Positions 21,853 to 35,741 of a stretch of DNA of 64,000 nt are shown here, piece by piece. The stretch's first letter is position 1; each line of letters opens with the position of its first letter. The notes beneath the pieces are model-generated. The model was given only the letters and a program-made list of their open reading frames with translations. It was not told the origin of the DNA and did no database searches. The translations under genes and the position numbers were made by a program. This DNA comes from Paludisphaera borealis (lineage in GTDB: Bacteria; Planctomycetota; Planctomycetia; Isosphaerales; Isosphaeraceae): assembly GCF_001956985.1 (NCBI RefSeq), contig NZ_CP019082.1:3038001-3102000 (forward strand). The letters run 5' to 3'.

Positions 21853-23073
21853 TCATCGCGCGCCCGCCCGGATCGCCTCCATGGGGGCGAGTCGCGAGGC
21901 TTTCCAGGCGGGGTAGAGGCCGCCGATCGTCCCCATGACCACCGACAGCCCGAGGCCGATCGCGATCTGCTTGGGCGAAGCCGCGAGGTGCAGCCCGCCG
22001 GTCAGGAAGTGGTTCGCCACCGCCGCCGCGGCCAGCGTGATCAAACAGCCGAGCACGCCGGCCGCTAGCCCCAGGAAGGCACTTTCGGCCGTGATCAGCT
22101 TCAGGACGTCCTTGCGCGACCATCCGTTGGTCCGCAGAACGCCGAACTCGGCGAACCGCTCCATCGTGCTCATCAGCATCGTGTTCACGATCCCGACCAC
22201 CCCCACCAGGAGCGCCAGGCTGACCACCAGCATCAGACCGTTGTTGATCTCGGTCATGATCGAGCCGAAGTTCGCCTGGAATTCCCGCATGTTGAGGGCG
22301 TCGACCCCCGGCACCGCGGCCTCAATGGCGCGGGCGACCTGGTCCATCTGGTCCGGCCGCTCGGCTTCGACGTAGAAACACGAAACCTGCCCCGGAGCCA
22401 GTCCCAGCAGCTTGCGGGCGATGCCGATGTCCATGACCAGGATGTCGTCGAACAGCATCGAGCCGGTGTCGTAAATCCCGACGATCTGGAACTCCATCTC
22501 GCCGATCCGGAGCGAGTCCCCCACCTGCTTGGGCTTGCCGGCCGCGTCAAGGTGACGCCCTGCGGTCTTGCGGCTGATCACCACGCGCGGCTGGTCGCGG
22601 TCGTCAAGGGTCAGGAACCGGCCCTGCTTGATCGACTTGGAGTAGACGCCGGTGCGCGACCGAAGGTGGGTCTCGATGTCCTGGCCGAGAACCGCGGCGG
22701 CGTCGAGGATGCTCTGCATCCGCTTGGTCTTCGACGTCCAGTTTTCGAGCTTGGTGAGGTTGCGGAACAGGCTGGTCCCCTCGATCGGCGGGGCGGCCTC
22801 CCAGACCTCGGCCGCGACGAGCCGGACCCCCGGCACCTGGCGGATCTTCTCTTCAAGGTCGGCCCGGAGGTGGCTGAAGATCGGCGCGGGGGCGTCTTCG
22901 CGCAGCACCAGCATCCCCTGGACCTGCCCCAGGGTCTCGCCGAGCAGGTTCCGCATGCCGGCCGACAGACTGATCAGGCCCAGGACGCCGACGATGGGGA
23001 TCGAGAGCCCGACCAGGCCGAGCACCGTGCGCACCGGCCTCGTCCACAAATTCCGAAACGCAAACCTCAACAT
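21853..23073 (-). CDS. ABC transporter permease (MacB/FtsX type)
   Basis: A 406-residue permease with a first membrane helix right at the N-terminus (RFAFRNLWTRPVRTVLGLVG), a periplasmic MacB_PCD-type domain of about 200 residues, and three C-terminal helices of the FtsX domain (LMLVVSLALLVGVVGIVNTML). This topology fits type VII ABC exporters such as MacB and LolCDE, which move lipoproteins, peptides or drugs without passing them through the membrane helices. No ATPase gene is adjacent inside the window. ATG 23073 is preferred because it places helix 1 at the start; an upstream in-frame ATG at 23151 would add 26 charged residues. Confidence 0.88.
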   Translation of the reverse strand: MLRFAFRNLWTRPVRTVLGLVGLSIPIVGVLGLISLSAGMRNLLGETLGQVQGMLVLREDAPAPIFSHLRADLEEKIRQVPGVRLVAAEVWEAAPPIEGTSLFRNLTKLENWTSKTKRMQSILDAAAVLGQDIETHLRSRTGVYSKSIKQGRFLTLDDRDQPRVVISRKTAGRHLDAAGKPKQVGDSLRIGEMEFQIVGIYDTGSMLFDDILVMDIGIARKLLGLAPGQVSCFYVEAERPDQMDQVARAIEAAVPGVDALNMREFQANFGSIMTEINNGLMLVVSLALLVGVVGIVNTMLMSTMERFAEFGVLRTNGWSRKDVLKLITAESAFLGLAAGVLGCLITLAAAAVANHFLTGGLHLAASPKQIAIGLGLSVVMGTIGGLYPAWKASRLAPMEAIRAGAR

Positions 23074-23336
23074 CCGCGCGCCCCGCCCTTCTCGTTCGCG
23101 AAGAATCGACCCGACGTCGCCATTGGAACCGATCGACGCCTCGGCCGCCACCTCGCCGCCCGAACCATCCGATTCCTCGGCTCGACGGTTCGTCGATCGC
23201 GGCCGCCTCGGTCCGGATCTTGCAAGGAGACAAGGGGAAGCAGGCTGAGACGGTCCGCTATCCGTGACCTAGAGTTGAAATGGAGAGACTTGGACGTCTT
23301 CGAGTCCCGTAGTCGGCGACCTTATCGAGAAGTGCC

Positions 23337-23726
23337 ATGACGAGCAACCCGCGACGTTCTTTTCGAGGTGACGCGCCGCAGATCGGCAGCCCCGTGCTCG
23401 AACGCCGATTCTGGACGCGCGAACCCGCCAGGGACGCCGAAGCGACCCTGACCTGGACTCAAGACGGGGCCGAAGTCGCCGTCGCGGCCCACCTCGTGGA
23501 TCTCAGCGTCCGCGGCGCGGCGGTGATCCTCGCCAAGATCCCCCCGCGCGGGGCGGTCATCCGGCTCGGACTCGCGGCGGTCGAGACGGCGACCGTGGAG
23601 GGTCGCGTCGTCGCGATGCGGCTTCACCCCAAGCGCGGCTGGTTGATCCTGCACATCAAGTTCACCGCCGACTGCCCGAAAGCACTCTACGACCAGGCGG
23701 TGGACGGCGCCGATGGCGAGGGCTGA
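23337..23726 (+). CDS. PilZ-domain protein (candidate c-di-GMP effector)
   Basis: A 129-residue single-domain protein. It has the PilZ elements: an Arg-rich N-terminal stretch (LERRFWTREPARDAE, resembling the RxxxR motif) and DLSVRGA, which matches DxSxxG, followed by the beta-barrel strands to FTADC. PilZ domains bind cyclic di-GMP and control motility, polysaccharide synthesis or adhesion. The RxxxR spacing is not perfect, so binding is likely but not certain. It is oriented away from the ABC permease gene, and its partner is unknown. Confidence 0.78.
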   Translation: MTSNPRRSFRGDAPQIGSPVLERRFWTREPARDAEATLTWTQDGAEVAVAAHLVDLSVRGAAVILAKIPPRGAVIRLGLAAVETATVEGRVVAMRLHPKRGWLILHIKFTADCPKALYDQAVDGADGEG

Positions 23727-23780
23727 TCGAACCGATCGCTGCTCGCCGTGACGCCTACCCCCCCCCCGCGCCACCGACAG

Positions 23781-24755
23781 TCATTTCAACAAATGGCGTT
23801 GAAAAAAGGCGACGAAGTCGCGAGGCATGCCGTCCTCGGGGTTCGGGGTGTCCCGATAGTCGTCCTCGTGGCGGAGGATGCATTCAATCTGCAAGGGGTC
23901 GAGCCGCTCCTTGAGGGCGATCCCGAAGTTGGGATGGTGGATGCCCTCCCCCGGGCGCGCGTCGCTCGGCAGCGGCCCCTTCGGTTCGGAGTAGTAGAGG
24001 AACACCGGCGGGTCGTCGACCGACACGTGGTGCAACGGCGAGGCGTCCTCGAACAGCGAGCCGCAACTGGGGCCGTCGAGGTCGGCGTCGGGCTTGAGGC
24101 CGAAGAAGGGACGGATCGCCGCGTGCTCATGAGCCCGTCCGCCGATCCATCGCTTGATGAATCGGGGGTCGTACGACGTCTGGGCGCCGACGCCGCCGAT
24201 GCAGACCAGGCGCGTCGACTCCCTCCCGACCGGGTCGGGGTCCGAGGGGTCGGCCATGTCGCCCTGAAAGCCGACCCAGAGCGCGATCCCCGCCCCCGCC
24301 GAGTTGCCGCACGCGGCGATCCGGTCCGGGTCGATCCCGAGCGCATCGGCCTTATGCCGCAAGAACTGCACGGCGCGGGCGCCGTCGAGCATCGGACCGG
24401 GATAGGGCGACTGCCGCGAGAGCCGGTAGTTGGCCGAGGCCACGGCGATCCCCTCCGCCAGACACCGCCGGACCAGCCACGCCGGGACGCTCGACTTGTC
24501 GCCGCCGAGGAACCCGCCGCCGTGGAAGAAGATCACCACCGGAGCGGGCCGGCCGCCGAGCTTCTCTCTGGGGGGCGTCCAGACGTCCATGACGTTGCGA
24601 TCGAACGGCCCGTAACGAAGCTCCGCGACGTCGGGCCGCGGCCTGACGGTCGCCATCCGCCTCTGGATTCTCACGACCGCCTCGTGGGAGACCGGTACGA
24701 ACAAACCGAGCAGGCCCATCAGGGCCAAAGGATGAGAACGCGACAGCCAGCTCAT
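23781..24755 (-). CDS. Exported or membrane-anchored alpha/beta hydrolase (carboxylesterase, HSL/BD-FAE type)
   Basis: A 324-residue esterase-like protein. An N-terminal hydrophobic segment (LALMGLLGLFVPV) suggests a signal or anchor. The oxyanion-hole motif HGGGF is at about 78-82 and the nucleophile elbow GNSAG at about 150-154 (Ser152). The probable catalytic His is in the HHPNFG segment near the C-terminus, with an Asp upstream. Relatives hydrolyse short acyl esters, including acetyl or feruloyl groups on plant polysaccharides; the substrate is not defined here. ATG 24755 is preferred over one 19 codons upstream because it begins directly before the signal segment. It is divergent from the giant beta-helix gene. 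Confidence 0.85.
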   Translation of the reverse strand: MSWLSRSHPLALMGLLGLFVPVSHEAVVRIQRRMATVRPRPDVAELRYGPFDRNVMDVWTPPREKLGGRPAPVVIFFHGGGFLGGDKSSVPAWLVRRCLAEGIAVASANYRLSRQSPYPGPMLDGARAVQFLRHKADALGIDPDRIAACGNSAGAGIALWVGFQGDMADPSDPDPVGRESTRLVCIGGVGAQTSYDPRFIKRWIGGRAHEHAAIRPFFGLKPDADLDGPSCGSLFEDASPLHHVSVDDPPVFLYYSEPKGPLPSDARPGEGIHHPNFGIALKERLDPLQIECILRHEDDYRDTPNPEDGMPRDFVAFFQRHLLK

Positions 24756-25024
24756 GGGTGTGCCTCGAAGTGGTCCGCGCCGCCAGCCGCCCGCTGGCGT
24801 TGATCGCTCCAACTTAAAGGTGTCGCACCGAGCGTTCCAATTCCATGAGAATCTCGGCGCAACGGCTCAGCACCGTAACGAGAATCCGGATTCGGGCGAT
24901 CAAGCGGCCGTGAGCGGGCCCTCGCCAGGATCTCGTTCGCTCCGTTGATGTTGTAGGCTTGGGACAGGGTGGAATCCGTGGCCGCGCTACCGAAGCGCTT
25001 GCTGGTGAGAGGACGGGCCAGATC

Positions 25025-28000
25025 GTGTCGCCAATACACCTTCGAACGCCGGACCGGGACGGGTCGCAGAGGAATCGAAAACGCCGGCTCGCCTTCGACG
25101 GGCTCGAAGCCCGCCGCTTGCTTGCGACCTTCTACGTCACCGACGCGGTGGATTCGAATGCGCCGGGGACGTTGCGGTACGCGATCAACCAGGCCAACCA
25201 GAGCACCGGGGCGAACGACATCGCCTTCGCCCTCCCCGCCTCGACCGCCCCGCTGCTGAATTCGCCCGCCCCGGGCTTCAACCCGACCACCCAGGTCTGG
25301 ACGATCCAGCTGCAATCCCCCCTGCCGCCGATCACCCGGCCGCTGATCATCGACGGGTTCTCGCAGGCTCACGCCGGGGTGGGCTATCGGTATCCCGTCG
25401 ACCTCATATCGAATCCGCCTACGATCCACGTCATCCAATCGACGGCCAACACGCTGGTTGCGCGCGACGGCCAGGACGCCAAGGTGCGGGTCGTCCTTGA
25501 TGGCTCGCTCATCGTCAACCCGTCGAAGATCGGGGTGGAGGTCGACGCCTCTCAGGTGGCGATCCGGGGGATGGCGATCACGGGCTTCCATACCGGCGTT
25601 CAGGTCGACCAGCTCGATCCTCAGGGCAATCCGGTGAAGGGAACCTTGATCCAGGGCAACTTCATCGGTGATTACCCGGTCTATCCGGTCGACGCGGCGA
25701 GCACCGGCAATCCCCTGCCGGCACCCAATAACGTCTGGACCTACAACGGGTCGAACTCGGGCGTCGGGATCTTGGCCTGGGCCGCCAATACGACCATCGG
25801 CGGCGAGAATCCCCAGGACAGCAACGTGATCACGGCGAACGGCCTGGAGGGGATCGTCCTCAACGTCCCCGCGACGGGGGGCGTGGTCTCGGGGAACCAG
25901 ATCGGCGTGATGAGCCTGGCCGACGGCCGGTATTCGTTGAACGGCAACGGCTACGCGGGAGGCCTGTCGTCCGACGGCGTTCTGGTCCTCGCTTCGAGCG
26001 TCCTCATCGGCGGCACAAGCGCGAAAGCGGCCAACGTCATCTCGGCCAACGCGGGCAACGGCGTCCACGTCTCGGGGGCGACCGTCACGGAGACGATCAT
26101 CGCGTCCAACATCATCGGCCTGGCACCCGGGGGCGGCTATTTGTTCGGGACGGGCAACCCCGGCAACGGTTACGACGGCGTCCGGATCGAGAACGCGACC
26201 ACGAACTCTATCAGAAACAACACGATCTCCTCGAACGGCGGCGCGGGGGTCCGGCTGATGGGGATCACGGCGACCGGCAACACGCTCACGGGCAACCTGA
26301 TCGGACTGACGGCCGATGGTCTGGCGGTGAAGGGGAATTTCGGCGAGGGCGTGGCGGTGTACGCGCCCCAGAACACGATCGGCGCGGGCAACGTGATCTC
26401 GGGCAACCTCCGCGGCGTCGGCGTCTATGGACCGCTCGCCAGCGGCATCTTGATCCAGAACAACCTGATCGGCACGGATATCACCGGCAAGGTCGACCTC
26501 GGCAATGCGCAAGAAGGCGTTTTGATCCAGGATTCGAGCGACGACCGGATCCTCGGCGACGCCAAGGGGGGCCAGGTGATATCGGGCAACCTGATCGGGA
26601 TCTCGCTCTCGAGCCTGTCGACGATCCGTACGCTGGTCCAGGGCAACTTCGTCGGCACCGACGTCACCGGCACGGCCGCGATCCCCAACGCGCACGAAGG
26701 CGTGCTCGTGCTCGACGCCGGGGGCAATACGATCGGCGGAACCACGCCCTCGGCCCTGAACCTGATCTCGGGCAACCACTGGGGCGTCCGGCTCCACGGG
26801 GTCGGGACGACCGGCGACCTGGTCGAAGGCAACATCATCGGCGCCGACATCACCGGCAAGCTGCCGATCGGCAACGAGGTCCACGGCGTCATCGTCAGCG
26901 GCTCCGCGTCGGGCAACATCATCGGCGGCGTCGATCCGACCGCCGGCAACATCATCGCCTTCAACTTCATAGCTGGCGTGCAGATCGTATCGGGCGTCGG
27001 CGACGCCGTCCTCTCGAACAGCATCTTCCAGAACGGCAAGATCGGAATCGACCTCTACGTCCCCGGCGACACCCCCTCGGGCGCCACGCCCAACGCGCCC
27101 GCCGGAACGCCCGGCCCGAACAACCTTCAAGCCCATCCCACCCTGACCGCCGCGCTCACCGGCTCGGGCGCGAAGATCCAGGGGACGCTCGTCAGCACCC
27201 CGAGCGCGACCTTCTTGATCCAGTTCTTCAGCAGTCCGATCCGCGACCTGTCGGGCTTCGGCCAGGGCCAGACCCTCGTGGGGACCGCCCTCGTGACGAC
27301 CGACGCGACCGGCTTCGCGGCGATCGACGCCGCCTCGACGGCCGCCATATCGCCCAACGCCTGGATTGCCGCGACCGCAACCAACGTCGCCTCCGCCGAC
27401 ACGTCGGAATTCTCGAACTCCGTCTCGGCCGTCCCGGTCAGCATCCAACTTTCCTCCGACGTCTACACGACGACCGCCCTGGCCGGCGCGGTCTTGATCG
27501 ACGTCCAGCGCGTCGACAATCCCAACGCGATCGTCTCGGTGAACTACGCCACCGCCCCCGGCTCGGCCCCGTCCGCGACCGCCGGCGTCGACCACGTGAG
27601 CGCCTCGGGCACCTTGACGTTCCAGCCGGGCGAGTTTCACAAGACGATCCGGATCGACCTCCTGCCCAACCCGTCGCGGACCACCACGACGTCGAACATC
27701 AGCCTGACTCTCAGCCAGCCCTCGGTGGGCGTGACGCTCGGCTCGCCCTCGACGGCCACGGTCACGATCAACAACAACCTGCCGCCGACGCTCGCCTTCG
27801 GCGCGTCGACCTACTCGACCTATTCCACCTCCGGCTCGATCGTCGTGACGATCAATCGGAGCGGGGCCGACCTGAGCACCGCCAGCTCCGTCTCGTTCGC
27901 GACGGTCGACGGCACGGGCGTCGCGGGGGTCGACTACACGACGACCGCCGGCACGGCGAGCTTCCTCCCCGGCCAGACGAAGGCCACCTTCTCGGTGCCG

Positions 28001-28678
28001 ATCCTTGCCGCCGCCCAGGCCGCGGGAACGCGGACCGTGGGCCTGGTCCTCTCCAACCCGGCCGGCGGGGCGACGCTCGGCGGCCCGAGCGTCGCGATTC
28101 TGAACATCGTCACGGCTGCGTCGCCCGCCCCCGGGCCGGTCGACACGGTCCCTCCCCATGTGACCAGCCAGCAGCTTTTTTACGGCCCTGGGGGCGTGGC
28201 GGGGATGGTGCTCGGCTTCAGCAAGCCGCTCGACCCGGCGCGGGCCGTCGACCTCGGCAACTACGGCTATTACGTGTACAAGCTCGGTCGCGACGGACGC
28301 TTCGGCACGCGCGACGACTCGTACGTCGCGATCGCGTCGGCGACCTACGACGCCTCGCGGTACGCCGTGACGCTCACGTTCGCCAGGGGACTCGGCTCGG
28401 CGGGAACGGCCCGGCTCGTCGTCAACGGCCTCGCCAGCTATACGCTGAACCGAGGCGTCGCCGACACGTCGGGCAACCTGCTCTCGGGCGTGGGCGACAA
28501 CGTGCCAGGCTCGTCCTATACAACCAACTTCAGCCTGGCGGCCCCGAAGCCCGTGACGACGGTCGGCCGATCGCCGATCACGCGAACGCCCGTCGTCCGA
28601 GCTCCGATCGTTCGGGCTCCAGTCGTTCGAAAGACCTTGCCGCACCCCGTGGCCCGGACGCAAACGCGGGGGCGCTGA
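25025..28678 (+). CDS. Giant exported right-handed beta-helix / Calx-beta surface protein
   Basis: About 1217 residues. The N-terminus has the planctomycete export-type segment RKRRLAFDGLEARRLL. From about 35 to 680 there are repeated beta-helix rungs of the parallel-beta-helix (pectate-lyase-like) type with recurring phrases such as GNIIGADITGK and NTIGGTTPSALNLISGN. A linking beta domain follows, then two Calx-beta domains (ATAGVDHVSASGTLTFQPGE and GVAGVDYTTTAGTASFLPGQ), then a C-terminal domain with GRDGRFGTRDDSY. The tail is short and basic with repeated Pro/Val/Arg units. It is probably a secreted or cell-surface adhesin or polysaccharide-binding protein. The start is uncertain: GTG 25025 follows AGAGGA by 11 nt, while a TTG at 24959 would add 22 residues. 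Confidence 0.85.
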   Translation: MSPIHLRTPDRDGSQRNRKRRLAFDGLEARRLLATFYVTDAVDSNAPGTLRYAINQANQSTGANDIAFALPASTAPLLNSPAPGFNPTTQVWTIQLQSPLPPITRPLIIDGFSQAHAGVGYRYPVDLISNPPTIHVIQSTANTLVARDGQDAKVRVVLDGSLIVNPSKIGVEVDASQVAIRGMAITGFHTGVQVDQLDPQGNPVKGTLIQGNFIGDYPVYPVDAASTGNPLPAPNNVWTYNGSNSGVGILAWAANTTIGGENPQDSNVITANGLEGIVLNVPATGGVVSGNQIGVMSLADGRYSLNGNGYAGGLSSDGVLVLASSVLIGGTSAKAANVISANAGNGVHVSGATVTETIIASNIIGLAPGGGYLFGTGNPGNGYDGVRIENATTNSIRNNTISSNGGAGVRLMGITATGNTLTGNLIGLTADGLAVKGNFGEGVAVYAPQNTIGAGNVISGNLRGVGVYGPLASGILIQNNLIGTDITGKVDLGNAQEGVLIQDSSDDRILGDAKGGQVISGNLIGISLSSLSTIRTLVQGNFVGTDVTGTAAIPNAHEGVLVLDAGGNTIGGTTPSALNLISGNHWGVRLHGVGTTGDLVEGNIIGADITGKLPIGNEVHGVIVSGSASGNIIGGVDPTAGNIIAFNFIAGVQIVSGVGDAVLSNSIFQNGKIGIDLYVPGDTPSGATPNAPAGTPGPNNLQAHPTLTAALTGSGAKIQGTLVSTPSATFLIQFFSSPIRDLSGFGQGQTLVGTALVTTDATGFAAIDAASTAAISPNAWIAATATNVASADTSEFSNSVSAVPVSIQLSSDVYTTTALAGAVLIDVQRVDNPNAIVSVNYATAPGSAPSATAGVDHVSASGTLTFQPGEFHKTIRIDLLPNPSRTTTTSNISLTLSQPSVGVTLGSPSTATVTINNNLPPTLAFGASTYSTYSTSGSIVVTINRSGADLSTASSVSFATVDGTGVAGVDYTTTAGTASFLPGQTKATFSVPILAAAQAAGTRTVGLVLSNPAGGATLGGPSVAILNIVTAASPAPGPVDTVPPHVTSQQLFYGPGGVAGMVLGFSKPLDPARAVDLGNYGYYVYKLGRDGRFGTRDDSYVAIASATYDASRYAVTLTFARGLGSAGTARLVVNGLASYTLNRGVADTSGNLLSGVGDNVPGSSYTTNFSLAAPKPVTTVGRSPITRTPVVRAPIVRAPVVRKTLPHPVARTQTRGR

Positions 28679-28849
28679 GCATCCGTCACCCCTTCCCGGA
28701 GAGCCGGGGGATCTTCTTGATGTTCCCTTTACAAGCTTCCGGCGGTTCCCTCACAATGTTGATTTGAATTTTGCTTTCCGGAGTCGGCCCGCGCGCGGGA
28801 GTCCCCGGAAGTCGAGATTTCCCACTCGCATTCTCAGCTTGGATACACC

Positions 28850-29659
28850 ATGAAGGCCACGCAAGCCGCCGCGGACGCGCAGCAGAAGTTCGACAACAAC
28901 GGCCAGTACAGCCGTGATTCGATCCTGCGATACGAGAAGATCTTCGGCGACAACTACATCAGCACCGGCGGCGTCGAGACGACCGAGAACCTGTTCTCAC
29001 GCCTCGAAGGGTGGATCAAGCCCGGCATGCGGGTGCTCGACGTCGGCAGCGGGATCGGCGGCGCAGCGTTCGACCTGGTCAAGCGGTTCGACGCCAAGGT
29101 GACCGGCATCGACCTGGCCGAGGAGATGGTGGCCGTCGGACACGACCGCGCCAAGACCGCCGGCATGTCCGACAAGGTCGACTTCATCCTCGGCGACGTG
29201 CTCAAGACCGACTTCCCCGAGAAGTTCGATCTGATCTGGAGCCGCGACGCCTTCATGCACATTCCCGACAAGGCGGCGCTCTTCGCCAAGCTGTACAGCC
29301 TGCTCAACGACGGCGGCAAGCTGATCATCACCGACTACGCCCGAGGCAAGACGCCGGCCTCGCCGGAGTTCGAAGAGTACATCCGCAACACCGGCTACAG
29401 CGTCATAGAGCCCCAGCAGTACGGAAAGGTGCTCGAAGCGGCCGGGTTCGTCGACGTGATCGTGGACGACGCCACCGCGACGTTCGTCGACATCCTCGAA
29501 CGCGAGTCCAAGCGGCTCCGCGAGCATCGTCAGGAATTCCTCACGGTCTTCAGCGAGAAGGATCTCAACTACCTGGTCGACCGCTGGGCCATGAAGGAGC
29601 GGTTCTGCGCGGCCGGCGACCAGAAGTGGGGCATCTACCTCGCCACCCGCCGCGGCTGA
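28850..29659 (+). CDS. Phosphoethanolamine N-methyltransferase-like protein (eukaryote-type PMT)
   Basis: A 269-residue SAM methyltransferase. Beyond the generic motif I (RVLDVGSGIGG, 61-71) it carries signatures of the plant, nematode and Plasmodium phosphoethanolamine methyltransferases: NNGQYSRDSILRYEKIFG (16-33), ISTGGVETT (37-45), SRDAFMHI (131-138), DYARG (162-166) and QQYGKVLEAAGF (189-200). Tyr20 and His137 sit where I expect the Tyr/His catalytic dyad of the Plasmodium enzyme. These enzymes methylate phosphoethanolamine stepwise to phosphocholine. A related phosphobase or small-amine substrate remains possible. An APC permease and a phosphatidylcholine-synthase-like gene follow on the same strand. 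Confidence 0.82.
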   Translation: MKATQAAADAQQKFDNNGQYSRDSILRYEKIFGDNYISTGGVETTENLFSRLEGWIKPGMRVLDVGSGIGGAAFDLVKRFDAKVTGIDLAEEMVAVGHDRAKTAGMSDKVDFILGDVLKTDFPEKFDLIWSRDAFMHIPDKAALFAKLYSLLNDGGKLIITDYARGKTPASPEFEEYIRNTGYSVIEPQQYGKVLEAAGFVDVIVDDATATFVDILERESKRLREHRQEFLTVFSEKDLNYLVDRWAMKERFCAAGDQKWGIYLATRRG

Positions 29660-29772
29660 GCCGAGCTTTTCGTCGTCAACCAACCCACACGTCGGCAAGT
29701 GCGAATTGCGCGGCGCGCCCCCTCGACCCTTTGCAACGGGGGGGCTCGCCGCTTTGGGAGGATTGCGAGGGC

Positions 29773-31377
29773 ATGCCGGGCACCGCGAACAACGACGTCC
29801 GAGACCTGGCGAGTTTCGGGTACAAGCAAGAGCTCGACCGATCGCTGGGAAGCTTCTCGTCGTTCGCGGCCGGATTCTCGTACATCTCGATCCTCACCGG
29901 CGTCTTCCAGATGTTCTACCTGGGATACGCGGCGGGGGGGCCGGCGTTCTTCTGGACCTGGCCCCTGGTCTTCGTCGGCCAGTTCACCGTGGCGCTCTGC
30001 TTCGCCGAGCTGGCCGCGTCGTACCCGCTCTCGGGCGGCGTCTACCAATGGTCGAAGAAAGTCGGCTCGCCGCTGGTCGGATGGCTGACCGGCTGGGTCT
30101 ACCTGGCGTGCTCGATCCTGTCGCTGGCGTCGGTGGCCCTGGCCCTCCAGAACACGTTGCCCCAGATCTCGCCGTCGTTCCAGTGGTTCGGCGACGGGAC
30201 CGCCGCCGTCGACCAGGCCAAGAACGCCGTCTTGCTCGGCTGCACCCTGATCGTCTTTACGACGGTCATCAACGCCGTGGGGGTCCGGCTCATGGCCCGG
30301 ATCAACAACGTCGGCGTCTGCGCCGAGCTGGCCGGCGTGGTTCTCTTGATCGTGCTGCTGGCCCTGCGGGCGCGGCGCGGGCCGGAGATCCTGCTCGACG
30401 TCCAGGGGCGCGGCGAAGGCGCGCCAGGGGGCTATTTCGGCCCGTTCCTGGCCGCCGCGGTGATGGCGTCGTACGTCCTTTACGGCTTCGACACGGCGGG
30501 AACCCTGGCCGAGGAGACCGCCGACCCTCGCCGCCGCGCCCCCAAGGCGATCCTCACGGCGCTCGCCGCGGCGGGGCTCGCGGGAGGGCTGTTGATCGCG
30601 TCGGGCCTGACGGCCGTCGTCAATCCGGCCGACCCGGCGCTCGGGCAGGTTTCCGGCGGTCTGCCGTACATCGTCAAAACCGTCCTGGGGCCGTGGCTCG
30701 GGACGTTGTTCCTGATCGAAGTGGTCTTCGCCGTCACCGTCTGCGCCCTGGCCGTTCACGCGGGGACGGTGCGGTTGATCTTCGCGATGGCGCGCGACAA
30801 CAGCCTGCCGTTCGCCGAGGCCCTCGCCCGGGTGACCGGCGAGACCCGCACGCCGATCGCGCCGGCCGTCGTCACGGGACTGTTCGCCGCCGCGATCCTG
30901 CTCGCCAACGTCAACGCGCCGCGGATCATTGAAACCCTGTGCTCGGTCGCCCTCGTCTGGGCGAACCTGGCTTATCTTATGGTCACGCTGCCGCTCTTGA
31001 TCGTGCGGCTGCGAGCCTGGCCCGACCGGTTCGGAGCGAGCGACGACGACGCCCCCACGCCCGACAAACGGTTCAGCCTGGGACGGCTGGCTTTGCCCGT
31101 GAACATTGCGGCCGTGCTCTGGGGCGTCGGGCTGATCGTCAATATGAGCTGGCCTCGCCCCCAGGTCTACGGCGACGACCCGGTAGGCCGGTACGCGGCG
31201 GTCCTGGCGACGGCCGTTCTGCTCGGCGTCGGGGCCTTGTATTTTCTCTCGGTCGGTCGGCTGCGGGCCGGCGTCTTGCCCGAACACGCCGCCGAGATCC
31301 CGGTCGAGACCGAACTCGACTTCTCCGGCTCGGCGTCGGGTATGATAGGCCAGCTCGCGCCCGGCGAGTCCTCCTGA
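29773..31377 (+). CDS. APC-superfamily permease (amino acid/choline transporter-like)
   Basis: A 534-residue membrane protein with about twelve helices. The N-terminal part (FSSFAAGFSYISILTGVF, GGPAFFWTWPLVFVGQF, then AELAASYPLSGGVYQWS) is typical of the APC superfamily, and I judge it closest to the amino acid/choline transporter (ACT) branch that contains yeast choline and GABA permeases. The polar C-terminus is likely cytoplasmic. The ATG at 29773 has GGGAGG (29757-29762) about 10 nt upstream. It lies 113 bp after the methyltransferase and 21 bp before the phosphatidyltransferase. That context makes choline, ethanolamine or a related amine a reasonable substrate guess; an ordinary amino acid remains possible. 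Confidence 0.85.
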   Translation: MPGTANNDVRDLASFGYKQELDRSLGSFSSFAAGFSYISILTGVFQMFYLGYAAGGPAFFWTWPLVFVGQFTVALCFAELAASYPLSGGVYQWSKKVGSPLVGWLTGWVYLACSILSLASVALALQNTLPQISPSFQWFGDGTAAVDQAKNAVLLGCTLIVFTTVINAVGVRLMARINNVGVCAELAGVVLLIVLLALRARRGPEILLDVQGRGEGAPGGYFGPFLAAAVMASYVLYGFDTAGTLAEETADPRRRAPKAILTALAAAGLAGGLLIASGLTAVVNPADPALGQVSGGLPYIVKTVLGPWLGTLFLIEVVFAVTVCALAVHAGTVRLIFAMARDNSLPFAEALARVTGETRTPIAPAVVTGLFAAAILLANVNAPRIIETLCSVALVWANLAYLMVTLPLLIVRLRAWPDRFGASDDDAPTPDKRFSLGRLALPVNIAAVLWGVGLIVNMSWPRPQVYGDDPVGRYAAVLATAVLLGVGALYFLSVGRLRAGVLPEHAAEIPVETELDFSGSASGMIGQLAPGESS

Positions 31378-31398
31378 ACGAGTCAAGGAACCCACACC

Positions 31399-32211
31399 AT
31401 GGTCGAAGTCCTCAAGCGCCGGAAGCCTCGCCCCGCGCCCGAATCGCGCGAGCTCGCGCCGCCGAGCCCCCTGCGCCGCGCCCTCGGCTGGTGCGTCCAC
31501 ACGTACACGGCGTCGGGCCTGGCGATCGCGGCGGTGATCCTCGCGCTCCTGGTCGAGGGGGGGCTCGACGCCTTCCGCTGGTCGTTCCTGCTGATGTTCA
31601 CGGCCACGATCGTCGACGCCACCGACGGCACCTTCGCCCGCGCCGTGCGGATCAAGGAGGCGGTGCCCAGCTTCGACGGCCGCCGGCTCGACGACATCAC
31701 CGACTTCCTCACCTACACGTTCTTGCCCTTGATGCTGATCTGGCGGGCCGGGCTAATACCCGCCGGCTATGAAGCCTGGCTGATCGCCCCCTTGCTGGCG
31801 AGCGCCTACGGTTTCTGCCAGGTGGACGTGAAGACGCACGACGGCTACTTCCTGGGCTTCCCCTCGCTCTGGAACATCGTCGCGCTGTATCTCTACGCCC
31901 TGACGATCCCCCAATGGGGCGCGCTCGGCGTGGTGCTGCTGCTGGCCTTCCTCACGTTCGTGCCCGTCAAGCACCTGTATCCGTCGCAACCCGGGCGGTT
32001 GAACCGGTTCGCGACGATCACGGGGAGCGTCTGGGGCGTTCTGGTCGCCTGGCTGGCCTGGCGGCTGCCGACCTCGGCGCAAGGTACGATCGACGCCGGG
32101 ACGACGACCCTGGCCCTGGTCTCGTTGATCTACCCGGCCTTCTACATGGGCACCTCGTGGTACATCACGATCCGAGACTGGTCGCGACCCGAGCATCGGT
32201 CCCCAGCGTGA
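31399..32211 (+). CDS. CDP-alcohol phosphatidyltransferase, phosphatidylcholine-synthase-like
   Basis: A 270-residue membrane enzyme with about eight helices. The family motif reads DATDGTFAR, then 12 residues, then GRRLDDITD, that is D-x2-D-G-x2-A-R-x12-G-x3-D-x3-D with all four Asp present. The 12-residue spacing and the flanks (CVHTYTASGLAI; VKTHDGYFLGFPSLWNIVALYLY) match bacterial phosphatidylcholine synthase (Pcs) as I know it, rather than PgsA or PssA. Pcs condenses CDP-diacylglycerol with free choline to form phosphatidylcholine at the inner membrane. AAGGA lies about 10 nt before the ATG. Its 3' end overlaps the converging MFS gene by 47 bp. Confidence 0.82.
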   Translation: MVEVLKRRKPRPAPESRELAPPSPLRRALGWCVHTYTASGLAIAAVILALLVEGGLDAFRWSFLLMFTATIVDATDGTFARAVRIKEAVPSFDGRRLDDITDFLTYTFLPLMLIWRAGLIPAGYEAWLIAPLLASAYGFCQVDVKTHDGYFLGFPSLWNIVALYLYALTIPQWGALGVVLLLAFLTFVPVKHLYPSQPGRLNRFATITGSVWGVLVAWLAWRLPTSAQGTIDAGTTTLALVSLIYPAFYMGTSWYITIRDWSRPEHRSPA

Positions 32212-33595
32212 GGGCGTCGAGATCCTCGGCCCTCGCCTCGCGCTGGCCTTCCTCGACGTCGACCAGGGCGAGCAACAGCCCTCCCACGGCGAAGAAGCCG
32301 ATGACGCCGAGGATCGCTCCACGGCTCGACCCCGACAGCATGTTGATGACCGCGAACATGGCCGGGCCGAAGATCCCCGCGAACTTCTCCACGACCGCGA
32401 AGAAGCCGAAGAACTCGCCCGACTTGCTGCGTGGGATCAAGCTCGCGAACAGCGACCGCGAAAGCCCCTGCGTCCCCCCCTGCACCGTCCCCACGAGCAC
32501 GGCCAGGATCAAGAAGTCGCGTTCCGTCTTCATGAAATAACCGACGATGCAGATCAGCGTGTAGACGCCCAGCCCGAGCATGATCGACCGCTTCACCCCC
32601 AGCTTTCCCGCCAGCGCGCCGAAGAGGAACGAGAACGGGATGCCGACGAACTGGACGATCAGAATCGAGGCGATCATGGCCGTCGGCTTGATTTTCAGCT
32701 CAGCGCCGTAGACCGTCGCCATGCGGATGATCGTGCCGATGCCGTCGTTGTAGATCAGGAACGCCAGGAGCATCAAGAACCCCTGCCGACACCGCCGGAG
32801 GTCGCGACCCGTCTCCTTGAGTCGGAGCATCGTGGCCCGCTGCGGATGCAGATCGGCCCAGCGGTCGGCGTCGGCGCCAAGGGTCGGCTCGGAGACCCGA
32901 CGGAACAGCGGGATCGAGAATATGAACCACCAGACGGCGACCGACACGAAGGCCAGTCGAGTCGGGAGCGTGGTCTGAGCGTCGGTCAGCCCCTTGCCGG
33001 ACGGGAGCCCGAACCATTGCGGGTTCAGGATCCAGGCCAGGTTCAGCGCGAGTAGCAAGCCGCCGCCGACGTACCCCAGCGCATAGCCGGCCGTCGAGAC
33101 CCGGTCGATCTCGTCGGGCCGCGCGATGTGCGGCAGCAGGGCGTCGTAGAACACGAAGCTGCCGTTGGCGCCGATATTGGCGAGGATGAACAAGACCGAG
33201 GCAAGCAGCCAGTCGCCGGTGTGGATGAAGTACATCGCCGCGACCGCCGTCAGGCCGATCGCCAGGAATATCCCCAGCAGCTTCTTCTTCCGCGCCGTGT
33301 GATCGGCGTAAGCGCCGAGGATCGGCGAGACGACCGCGATCAGGATCATGCCGATGGTCGTCGCCACCGCCAGCCGCCCCGACGCGACACTGGGTTCGAG
33401 GCCCTTGCACGCCACGGTCGAATAATAGATCGGGAAGACGGCCGTGATGATCGTGCAGACCATCGCCGAGTTGGCCCAGTCGTACATCGCCCAGGCCCGC
33501 AGTTCCGGCCGGTTCAAGCCGAGACTCGCCAACAGGCGCGACCAGAGCCCGGTTTCACCGTCTTCCGCGCGCGTCTCGTGCCGCTGAACGCTCAT
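32165..33595 (-). CDS. UMF1/Atg22-type MFS transporter
   Basis: A 476-residue twelve-helix carrier. It has the family start WAMYDWANSAMVCTIITAVFP, the GAYADHTARKKKLLG loop between helices 2 and 3, SFVFYDALLPHI, and LVGTVQGGTQGLSRSLFASLIP in the second half. These features define the UMF1 branch of MFS that includes the yeast vacuolar effluxer Atg22; bacterial members are of unknown substrate. ATG 33595 is preceded by AGAGGA at a good distance. The gene converges on the phosphatidylcholine-synthase-like gene, and the last 47 bp of the two overlap on opposite strands. Confidence 0.9.
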   Translation of the reverse strand: MSVQRHETRAEDGETGLWSRLLASLGLNRPELRAWAMYDWANSAMVCTIITAVFPIYYSTVACKGLEPSVASGRLAVATTIGMILIAVVSPILGAYADHTARKKKLLGIFLAIGLTAVAAMYFIHTGDWLLASVLFILANIGANGSFVFYDALLPHIARPDEIDRVSTAGYALGYVGGGLLLALNLAWILNPQWFGLPSGKGLTDAQTTLPTRLAFVSVAVWWFIFSIPLFRRVSEPTLGADADRWADLHPQRATMLRLKETGRDLRRCRQGFLMLLAFLIYNDGIGTIIRMATVYGAELKIKPTAMIASILIVQFVGIPFSFLFGALAGKLGVKRSIMLGLGVYTLICIVGYFMKTERDFLILAVLVGTVQGGTQGLSRSLFASLIPRSKSGEFFGFFAVVEKFAGIFGPAMFAVINMLSGSSRGAILGVIGFFAVGGLLLALVDVEEGQREARAEDLDALTLGTDARVATSLGS

Positions 33596-34136
33596 CGCCG
33601 GGTCCTCTTCGAGTCTCTGAATCAAGCTGGGGGCATCCGCATTCCGCGACCTCGCGGACTGCTCCCGCTCGTTGCGCGCGGGTCGCGAATCGAACTATCT
33701 ACGGCATAACCCCCCTTGTTGACCAGTGCAGCTTCGCCTCGCGGCACGGCGCGCGGACGACGACGAAACCGGCCTTCCTATCTTAAAACTAATTAAAGCA
33801 CCAAATTAAATCCTTCTCAGAAGCCGGGTTTCGGCTGGACGTCACTCATTGAATTCAAGGATATTATCAATATGATGATCAGGCGGTTTGCCTGCTGGAA
33901 CAACGGACGGCGCACGGCCTCGGAGCCGAGCTGGATCAGCCGTCGGGACGAATCGACTCCCACTGCGTCGACCTCCCACTCAACCTCGCCGCCGATAGCG
34001 GCCGCGAACCTCGCGACTTGACCAACAACGTGTCTGGTCGAACAATTCCATCGCTCGCGCCGCCTCGTTGGATTCGCTCACTACGGCGCGAACTTCCGTG
34101 GACTCCGCGGATTTCAACGCTCCGCATCGAGGTAAA
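33596..34136. other. Divergent intergenic region, MFS / RND efflux operon
   Basis: About 540 bp without a supported gene. The part from 33775 to 33890 is clearly AT-rich (runs such as TTAAAACTAATTAAAG and GATATTATCAATATGATG) against GC-rich surroundings and is the likely promoter or regulator-binding zone for both flanking genes. No metal-sensor gene sits here. Confidence 0.55.
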
Positions 34137-35741
34137 ATGCCACCACATGTACGAATTCGTATTCTTTCCAGCAACCGTTGGTTGATCGGCGGATTGGCGA
34201 CTGCGATCGGGCTCGCGGCGGCTTGGGTGTGGATCGGCAGGCTTCCCTCGTCCGGGTCGCCGGCCTCGATTCCCGAGACCGGGCCGGCGCCTGTGAAGCG
34301 CAGCGCGGCGGCCGACCGGATCGTCCGGATCACGGCCGAGCAGCAGAAGGTCATCGGCGTCGAGGTCGAGCCCGTGCGACTCGAGCCCGAGACGATCCTG
34401 GTCCGCGTCCCCGGCCGGATCGCGCCGGACGAGACCCGGTTCGCGTTCATCACCCCGCGCGCCCCGGGGATCGTCCACAGCGTCTCGGTGCGGATCGGTC
34501 AGGACGTCAAGGCCGGCGACGTGCTGGCCACGATCGAGAGTTCGCTGGTCGGCCAGGCCCGCCTCGACCTGCTCACGAACCTCCAGGCGTACGACGTGGC
34601 GCTGGCGCAGGCCCGCTGGCAGGAGATGATCCTCCGCAACACCAATGAGCTGATCGAGCGGCTCAAGGCCGAGGACACCCCCGAGCAGATCCACCAGAAG
34701 TTCGCCGACAAGCCGGTGGGGATCAATCGCGGACTCTTGCTGACCGCTTACACCGCGCATCGCCTGGCGAAGGCGAATCTGGGGCGGAAGAGCGACCTGT
34801 TCGACCAGGAGATCATCCGGGGCCAGCAGCTTGAGGAGACGAAGGCCCGGTTCGACTCGGACCTGGCCGCCTATCAGACGCTCCTGGACCAGACGGGCTA
34901 TGAGACCGGACTGGCGAACATCCGCGCCCAGCAGGCGTTGCGGCAGGCCGAGACCGCGGTGCTCGTCGCCCGCGAGAAGCTCCAGGTGCTGGGCGTCGAC
35001 CCCGACGACGACGACTACCTCCCCAAGGGCCTCATGCAGCCGGTTCCGGCCGCCGCCGAATCGGCCGGACTCCAGGCGCAGACCGCCGCCGCGCTGGCCG
35101 CCGCTCCGACCCAGGTTCGGAGACCCTCGTCGAAGGTGCCCGCCAGCCTCTACAAGCTGAAAGCGCCGTTCGCCGGCACGATCCTCGACCGCGAACTGGT
35201 CGTGCCCGGCGTCGCCGTCGAAATCGCGAACCGGATCTTCACGCTGGCGAACCTGGATCACGTCTGGATCGAGGCGAACATCAACCCAAGCAACCTCGTC
35301 CACCTCCGAAACGACCGCCACGTCGACGTCCGATTCACCTCGGACGCCTACCCCGAGCAGGAGTTCGAGGCCAAGGTTCTCTACTCCGGCGACATGGTGA
35401 TCGAGAAGACGCAGACGGTCACTATGTTGGCCCGCGCCGAGAACCCCGAGCACCTGCTCAAGCCGGGCATGTACATCGACGTCACCGTGGCCGTCCACTC
35501 CGACCACAAGGTGCCCTCGGTGCCGAGCAACGCCCTGCTCTCCGACGACGACCGCTGGATCGCCTTCGTGCGCATCGGCCCGGAGGAGTTCGAGCTGCGC
35601 GACGTCAAGACGCGCGGCCCCGGCGAGGCCCGCGCGGCGGTGTTCTCCGGGCTCAACCCCGGCGAGGACGTCGTAACGCACGGAGCGTTCAAACTCAAGG
35701 CCGAGTTGATTCGGATGGCGTCGTCCGACTCGCCGTCGTGA
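34137..35741 (+). CDS. RND efflux periplasmic adaptor (CusB/CzcB-like membrane fusion protein)
   Basis: A 534-residue adaptor. One N-terminal membrane helix (RWLIGGLATAIGLAAAWVW, about 13-31) anchors it to the inner membrane. A lipoyl-like/barrel-sandwich part follows (GRIAPDETRFAFITPRAPGIV, SVRIGQDVKAGDVLATIES), then a long alpha-hairpin of about 200 residues, a second lipoyl half (LYKLKAPFAGTILDRELVVPG), a beta-barrel (FTLANLDHVWIEANI) and a membrane-proximal domain. It bridges the RND pump to an outer-membrane channel. No His/Met-rich metal-binding N-terminus is visible. GAGGT lies a few nt before ATG 34137. The pump gene follows 69 bp downstream; no outer-membrane factor is in the window. 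Confidence 0.92.
   Translation: MPPHVRIRILSSNRWLIGGLATAIGLAAAWVWIGRLPSSGSPASIPETGPAPVKRSAAADRIVRITAEQQKVIGVEVEPVRLEPETILVRVPGRIAPDETRFAFITPRAPGIVHSVSVRIGQDVKAGDVLATIESSLVGQARLDLLTNLQAYDVALAQARWQEMILRNTNELIERLKAEDTPEQIHQKFADKPVGINRGLLLTAYTAHRLAKANLGRKSDLFDQEIIRGQQLEETKARFDSDLAAYQTLLDQTGYETGLANIRAQQALRQAETAVLVAREKLQVLGVDPDDDDYLPKGLMQPVPAAAESAGLQAQTAAALAAAPTQVRRPSSKVPASLYKLKAPFAGTILDRELVVPGVAVEIANRIFTLANLDHVWIEANINPSNLVHLRNDRHVDVRFTSDAYPEQEFEAKVLYSGDMVIEKTQTVTMLARAENPEHLLKPGMYIDVTVAVHSDHKVPSVPSNALLSDDDRWIAFVRIGPEEFELRDVKTRGPGEARAAVFSGLNPGEDVVTHGAFKLKAELIRMASSDSPS

Follow-up and report, generated by a model that had tools for sequence, protein, structure and literature searches.

A candidate choline-to-phosphatidylcholine gene module in Paludisphaera borealis and other Isosphaeraceae

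Bacterial phosphatidylcholine synthase (Pcs) uses exogenous choline according to the accessible sections of a review (PMC3972451), and those of a genome survey (PMC10434233) state that exogenous choline is required for the enzyme. The same review sections present a CDP-choline route as postulated for Treponema. Phosphoethanolamine methyltransferases (PMT) are described from plants, Plasmodium and nematodes, and no bacterial PMT route was described in the literature searched, which comprised titles and abstract openings as well as accessible sections of papers including PMC3972451, PMC10434233, PMC8590670, PMC12139422 and PMC7595734 and left most subscription journals uncovered. Here, a locus of Paludisphaera borealis is analyzed in which a PMT-like gene, a permease gene of the APC superfamily and a Pcs-like gene follow one another. 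It lies in a 64-kb window (GCF_001956985.1, contig NZ_CP019082.1, positions 3,038,001-3,102,000, forward strand), whose numbering is used throughout, and the genome (7.65 Mb in 3 contigs) is 99.93% complete. With modest confidence, the three genes are interpreted as a choline-to-phosphatidylcholine module in which a kinase and the PMT-like enzyme would supply the choline group for Pcs, an interpretation drawing its enzyme functions from homology, fold, linkage and co-occurrence. The module would combine known kinds of enzymes in an arrangement that was not found described.

Identity of the three encoded proteins

Positions 28850-32211 are exactly filled by the three genes, all on the plus strand, with spacers of 113 bp between the PMT-like and permease genes and 21 bp between the permease and Pcs-like genes (Table 1). 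A sequence-only reading of the window had named this trio, and the homology searches returned the same identities at the same place.

The best PDB sequence match of the PMT-like protein was Arabidopsis PMT2 (E 5.8e-72), followed by Arabidopsis PMT1 and the Plasmodium and nematode PMTs, and each of the 11 distinct PDB sequences below 1e-30 was a PMT. Its predicted model (pLDDT 90.7) gave 21 PMTs as the first 21 rows of a Foldseek search against the PDB, with TM-scores over the query of 0.84-0.91, and the first row after them had an E of 8e-22 and a TM of 0.71. Identity to four plant and Plasmodium PMT domains was 39-45%.

In the register of the Plasmodium enzyme (PfPMT), taken from the alignment with PDB PMT sequences, the catalytic positions Y20, H137 and D133 (PfPMT Tyr19, His132 and Asp128, the last of which we take to be catalytic) were invariant in 25 of 25 Isosphaeraceae proteins. 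The same applied to Y163, Y177, Y183 and K249 of the phosphobase site (PfPMT Tyr160, Tyr175, Tyr181 and Lys247). The accessible sections of PMC6705855 assign Tyr19 and His132 to a catalytic dyad, the three other tyrosines and Lys247 to the phosphobase site, and an electrostatic interaction in that site to Arg179. The Arg179 position is occupied by Thr181 in all 25 Isosphaeraceae and by Ser in 8 of the 10 other bacterial relatives that cover the site (Myxococcota and metagenome-assembled genomes, MAGs, of Desulfo- lineages), and Arg is kept in two Poribacteria, Arabidopsis and Plasmodium. In an IQ-TREE phylogeny of 28 rows, whose root is not known, the 14 Isosphaeraceae included formed one group (98/99), and the bacteria with Thr or Ser were split from the Arg group with a support of 99/98. 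Since Thr181 replaces Arg179, the Isosphaeraceae protein is, judged by its sequence, filed in a bacterial sister branch of PMT rather than as PMT proper. It probably converts phosphoethanolamine to phosphocholine. As a separate observation at L108:9501-10769 and L109:8819-10132, two Poribacteria have genes for an adenylate-kinase-family protein and, in convergent orientation, for a CDP-alcohol phosphotransferase in the vicinity of their Arg-type PMT, with Pfam searched for L108 alone.

Five NCBIfam phosphatidylcholine-synthase models matched the third protein (E 1e-40 to 9e-29), all below their curated cut-offs (best 139.8 bits against 440), and the protein is named Pcs-like for this reason. 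Its score against PF01066 was 17.9 bits with a cut-off of 22. The motif DG-x2-AR-x12-G-x3-D-x3-D, which the sequence-only reading had pointed out, was recovered in the longer form D-x2-DG-x2-AR-x12-G-x3-D-x3-D (D73, D76 G77, A80 R81, G94, D98 and D102) and is shared with the annotated Pcs of Sinorhizobium meliloti, which is 33% identical to the Pcs-like protein over 197 columns. The x12 spacing is the Pcs version of the motif in the accessible sections of PMC3972451, where the penultimate D is printed as G. A sequence search with the protein and its profile returned no convincing solved relative. Its predicted model (pLDDT 80.7) matched the phosphatidylserine (PS) synthases 7b1k/7pow (probability 1.00, TM 0.52/0.67), which have the CDP-alcohol phosphotransferase fold. 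All solved folds below E 0.001 were PS synthases (E 2.6e-4 to 8.2e-4), with cholinephosphotransferases reaching no better than E 0.4. Further CDP-alcohol enzymes detected in the genome were a PgsA, above its cut-off, and two proteins that had archaetidylinositol-phosphate synthase as their nearest match, below cut-off. On these matches, the Pcs-like enzyme probably forms phosphatidylcholine (PC) from CDP-diacylglycerol and choline.

The permease belongs to the APC superfamily (PF13520, E 1e-43), and its start was set at the ATG at 29773 within a longer mechanical open reading frame (29011-31377). Its best NCBIfam match was TIGR03428, the permease of the urea-carboxylase system (5.8e-152; 507 bits, cut-off 740), followed more weakly by TIGR00907 and an ethanolamine permease model, and TIGR03428, TIGR00907 and TIGR00908 all stayed below cut-off. 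Gene position, the only source for its substrate, makes it a probable importer of choline (or ethanolamine).

Conservation and surroundings of the locus

Conservation was analyzed in an order-level set of 45 genomes, all from one family (Isosphaeraceae). PMT was found in 25 and Pcs in 31 of them, and Pcs was present in all 25 PMT genomes (Fisher 2e-7 over genomes and 3e-4 over 21 genera, relatedness not being corrected further). Six of the 20 genomes without PMT had a Pcs match (G400, G407, G408 and G429-G431). The match in G400 was partial with 95 residues, while G407 and G408 are 83 and 89% complete, respectively, and have congeners with PMT. The gap between PMT and Pcs measured 1,548-1,970 bp in 16 genomes and 131 and 188 bp in two. 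The permease occupied the longer gap in all 11 inspected of the 15 non-window genomes that have it, and the two short-gap pairs showed no permease match in the stretch inspected. Conservation of the trio among relatives, named as a check in the sequence-only reading, was borne out and, like the linkage, exceeds chance, with the two genes less than 2 kb apart in 18 of the 25 that have PMT and PMT never found without Pcs among the 45.

In 392 genomes of the phylum, with at most six candidates scored per genome, Pcs-like genes were found in five and PMT in three, one of the latter weakly (33% identity, partial). Of the scored candidates in the three Pcs-bearing genomes outside the family, whose completeness is 77-87%, none matched PMT at 1e-20. 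Of the 29 named loci, 18 are planctomycetal. The order PMT-permease-Pcs occurred in 11 of the 18 planctomycetal loci and PMT-Pcs in one, and six had neither partner in the inspected flank, some of them cut by a contig end. Pcs was absent from the inspected flanks of all 11 PMT loci outside the Isosphaeraceae.

The permease adjoins Pcs in G429-G431, in which no PMT was found, and in G427 and G428, in which PMT lies far away. This pairing independent of PMT is as expected of a choline importer.

Several relatives carry a gene of the choline/ethanolamine-kinase family (PF01633) upstream of PMT. The family was above cut-off in 18 of 45 genomes, 17 of which have PMT, the exception being the 89% complete G408. 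The kinase is directly upstream of PMT in G393, G402, G416, G427 and G428, and the full order kinase-PMT-permease-Pcs occurs in G393 and G416. Outside the family, the kinase-PMT pair was found in three of 11 loci (L106, L107 and L111, from Desulfobacteraceae, Desulfohalobiaceae and a proteobacterial MAG), and at least two of the other eight are cut just upstream of PMT. The association of the kinase with PMT recurs across phyla. The nearest solved relatives of the PMT-linked kinase are choline/ethanolamine-kinase-family proteins. The P. borealis genome has one kinase of this family, unlinked to the locus (G000:C1:5689249-5690022), with 98.5 bits against a PF01633 cut-off of 29 and only 35% identity to the PMT-linked query kinase. 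In the Desulfobacteraceae MAG, the second gene upstream of the kinase (L106:3422-4804) encodes a match to the monomethylamine methyltransferase MtmB (PF05369, 4e-66), and a gene in L107 is similar by eye.

Table 1. Features at and around the PMT-permease-Pcs locus (window coordinates)
Feature	Position	Strand	Basis or remark
PMT-like S-adenosylmethionine (SAM) methyltransferase, 269 aa	28850..29659	+	homology, fold, residues
APC-superfamily permease, 534 aa	29773..31377	+	homology; next to Pcs also where no PMT is nearby
Pcs-like CDP-alcohol phosphotransferase, 270 aa	31399..32211	+	homology, motif, fold
Sigma-70-like promoter match, 5' of the PMT gene	28728..28757	+	9/12, weak; consensus match only
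Atg22-like MFS transporter, convergent neighbour	32165..33625	-	47-bp overlap with the Pcs gene at its 3' end
Large Calx-beta and beta-helix repeat protein gene, upstream	24959-28678	+	

The promoter-like match is one found with 0.3 expected in the region, and Rfam gave no match in 23000-35000 up to E 0.1. The upstream Calx-beta/beta-helix gene looks unrelated to the trio, and a 1303-aa open reading frame antisense to it resembles a GC-rich shadow frame. A relative of the Atg22-like transporter also flanks the cluster in seven of the 18 planctomycetal named loci.

Proposed route and its alternatives

In the proposed route, the choline/ethanolamine-kinase-family enzyme, encoded away from the locus in P. 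borealis and adjoining PMT in certain relatives, would phosphorylate ethanolamine, and three SAM-dependent methylations by the PMT-like enzyme would turn the phosphoethanolamine into phosphocholine. A putative phosphatase would then free choline, the permease would additionally import choline from outside, and the Pcs-like enzyme would join choline and CDP-diacylglycerol to PC and CMP. The cluster would thereby unite production of the choline group inside the cell with an importer and a user, which is the idea of the sequence-only reading extended by the kinase. That reading is partly supported, the gene identities by homology, the conserved trio and the permease-Pcs pairing agreeing with it. 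The claim that the locus is self-contained was not supported, since the kinase is unlinked in the P. borealis genome, none of the 25 genomes with PMT had a PF06888 phosphatase match and neither of the two decarboxylase families searched gave an ethanolamine source in P. borealis.

PC in this family, mentioned in the sequence-only reading, is reported for a relative. In the accessible sections of PMC12493201, citing Moore 2013, trimethylornithine lipid, PC, phosphatidylglycerol and phosphatidic acid are the major lipids of Singulisphaera acidiphila (G427; L097, DSM 18658), which has all four gene types, the kinase-PMT pair at one locus and the permease-Pcs pair at another. The medium contained yeast extract and peptone, so imported choline is a possible source of this PC.

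PS decarboxylase (PF02666) was patchy in the Isosphaeraceae with 13 of 45 genomes, and no match was found in 15 of the 25 PMT genomes, including that of P. borealis. Many Isosphaeraceae may therefore lack phosphatidylethanolamine (PE). In these 15 genomes PE, and hence PE methylation, is unlikely, unless PE is made by another route. As the P. borealis genome, complete to the degree given above, had no PF02666 hit, PE methylation is weakened as its PC route and is an unlikely PC source there, and PC would form without PE. TIGR00473 (PssA) was above cut-off in none of the 45 genomes, even those with PS decarboxylase, and is thus uninformative. As a source of ethanolamine, neither PS decarboxylase nor a group II decarboxylase (PF00282) was found in the P. 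borealis genome, other sources not having been searched, and PF00282 was not associated with PMT across the 45 genomes, so it was rejected for this role. An imported supply of ethanolamine would be consistent with this, possibly through the permease. A PHOSPHO1-type phosphatase (PF06888) was likewise rejected as the choline-releasing enzyme. Surface decoration by LicD was set aside as the fate of phosphocholine, with no LicD match in 24 of the 25 PMT genomes and a 34-residue match in the 25th.

Several observations weigh against the proposed route. PMT and Pcs are more than 1.4 Mb apart in G403, G427 and G428 (1.7 Mb in S. acidiphila) and on different contigs in four genomes. PS decarboxylase is present in ten of the 25 PMT genomes, S. 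acidiphila among them, and PE methylation may be the PC route of these genomes. The absence of PF06888 from all PMT genomes leaves the phosphatase step without its candidate, and PF01633 had no match in eight of the 25 (one of them, G403, a 2-contig assembly). The best NCBIfam model of all three kinases tested (L097:6912-7811, L106:7077-7976 and L131:8183-9169) was GntI, a guanitoxin-pathway kinase, below cut-off, and on this sequence match the kinase family may act on a substrate other than choline or ethanolamine. The sub-cut-off scores of the Pcs-like protein and its partner's Thr181 belong here too. For P. borealis itself, PC is only presumed.

The alternative that survives best, although we consider it unlikely, is that Pcs works on imported choline only. 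The phosphocholine made by the kinase and the PMT-like enzyme would then go elsewhere (into surface decoration, betaine or another osmolyte, or a secondary product), and the proximity of the genes would be regulatory or historical. This agrees with the reported use of exogenous choline by Pcs (PMC3972451 and PMC10434233, in the sections cited above), with Pcs and permease without a PMT match in G429-G431, with the unlinked genes of G403, G427 and G428, with the missing PF06888 and with the 11 PMT loci outside the family that have no Pcs in their inspected flanks. Against it stand a PMT never found without Pcs in 45 genomes and two PMT-Pcs pairs without a permease between them, and the surface phosphocholine transferase of Lic-1, LicD, had no match in 24 of these 25 genomes with PMT.

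Rather doubtful is a PMT-like enzyme that methylates free ethanolamine directly to choline, which would make kinase and phosphatase dispensable before Pcs and which the lost phosphate contact would reflect. Equally doubtful is its extension, that the Isosphaeraceae have a choline-autonomous, PE-independent PC route through a Thr/Ser-branch bacterial ethanolamine N-methyltransferase. The replacement of Arg179 by Thr in 25 of 25 and by Ser in eight of ten other bacteria, the 99/98 support for the Thr/Ser branch, the eight PMT genomes without a PF01633 match and the 25 without PF06888 all suit such an enzyme. However, the remaining phosphate-site residues Y163, Y177, Y183 and K249 are retained, and the kinase gene immediately precedes PMT in a number of lineages, among them Desulfo- MAGs whose PMT carries Ser at the Arg179 position. 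A CDP-choline (Kennedy) route would combine kinase, PMT, a putative cytidylyltransferase and the Pcs-like protein, the last working as a cholinephosphotransferase that joins CDP-choline and diacylglycerol. Such a route would need no phosphatase to use phosphocholine and resembles the one postulated for Treponema (PMC3972451, in part), but is very improbable given the x12 motif common to the Pcs-like protein and S. meliloti Pcs, the Pcs models matching at E down to 1e-40 and best folds that are PS synthases rather than cholinephosphotransferases.

Comparison with described systems

The choline-to-PC module with its own supply of the choline group can be tested in S. acidiphila, in which all four gene types were found and gene deletion has already been achieved according to the accessible sections of PMC12493201. 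It points to a possible means by which bacteria meet the choline demand of membrane PC themselves and, if true, could explain PC without PE.

With the Plasmodium, plant and nematode PMTs, the Isosphaeraceae protein shares the fold, the Tyr-His dyad, the Asp and, of five phosphate-site residues compared, all but Arg179, and its identity to the four domains from plants and Plasmodium is 39-45%. It differs in being bacterial and single-domain, in having Thr for Arg179 and in its genomic partner, Pcs. A bacterial sister branch is thus placed beside the plant and parasite PMTs, the latter of which are drug targets. With the S. meliloti type of Pcs, the Pcs-like protein has the x12 motif, 33% identity over 197 columns and the CDP-alcohol phosphotransferase fold in common, whereas its gene is linked to one that would make phosphocholine endogenously and its scores lie below the NCBIfam Pcs cut-offs.

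The Lic-1 system (LicA-LicB-LicC-LicD) likewise has a choline-kinase-family gene and a probable choline permease. In contrast, the kinase here is paired with PMT and the end enzyme is Pcs-like, and a LicD match was lacking in all but one of the 25 genomes with PMT. As in PE methylation by PmtA, SAM-dependent methylation would build the choline group inside the cell, but the proposed substrate is a soluble base and not PE, and PS decarboxylase was not found in the P. borealis genome. If true, base methylation feeding Pcs would join PE methylation, Pcs fed by scavenged choline, the CDP-choline route and glycerophosphocholine acylation as a further PC route.

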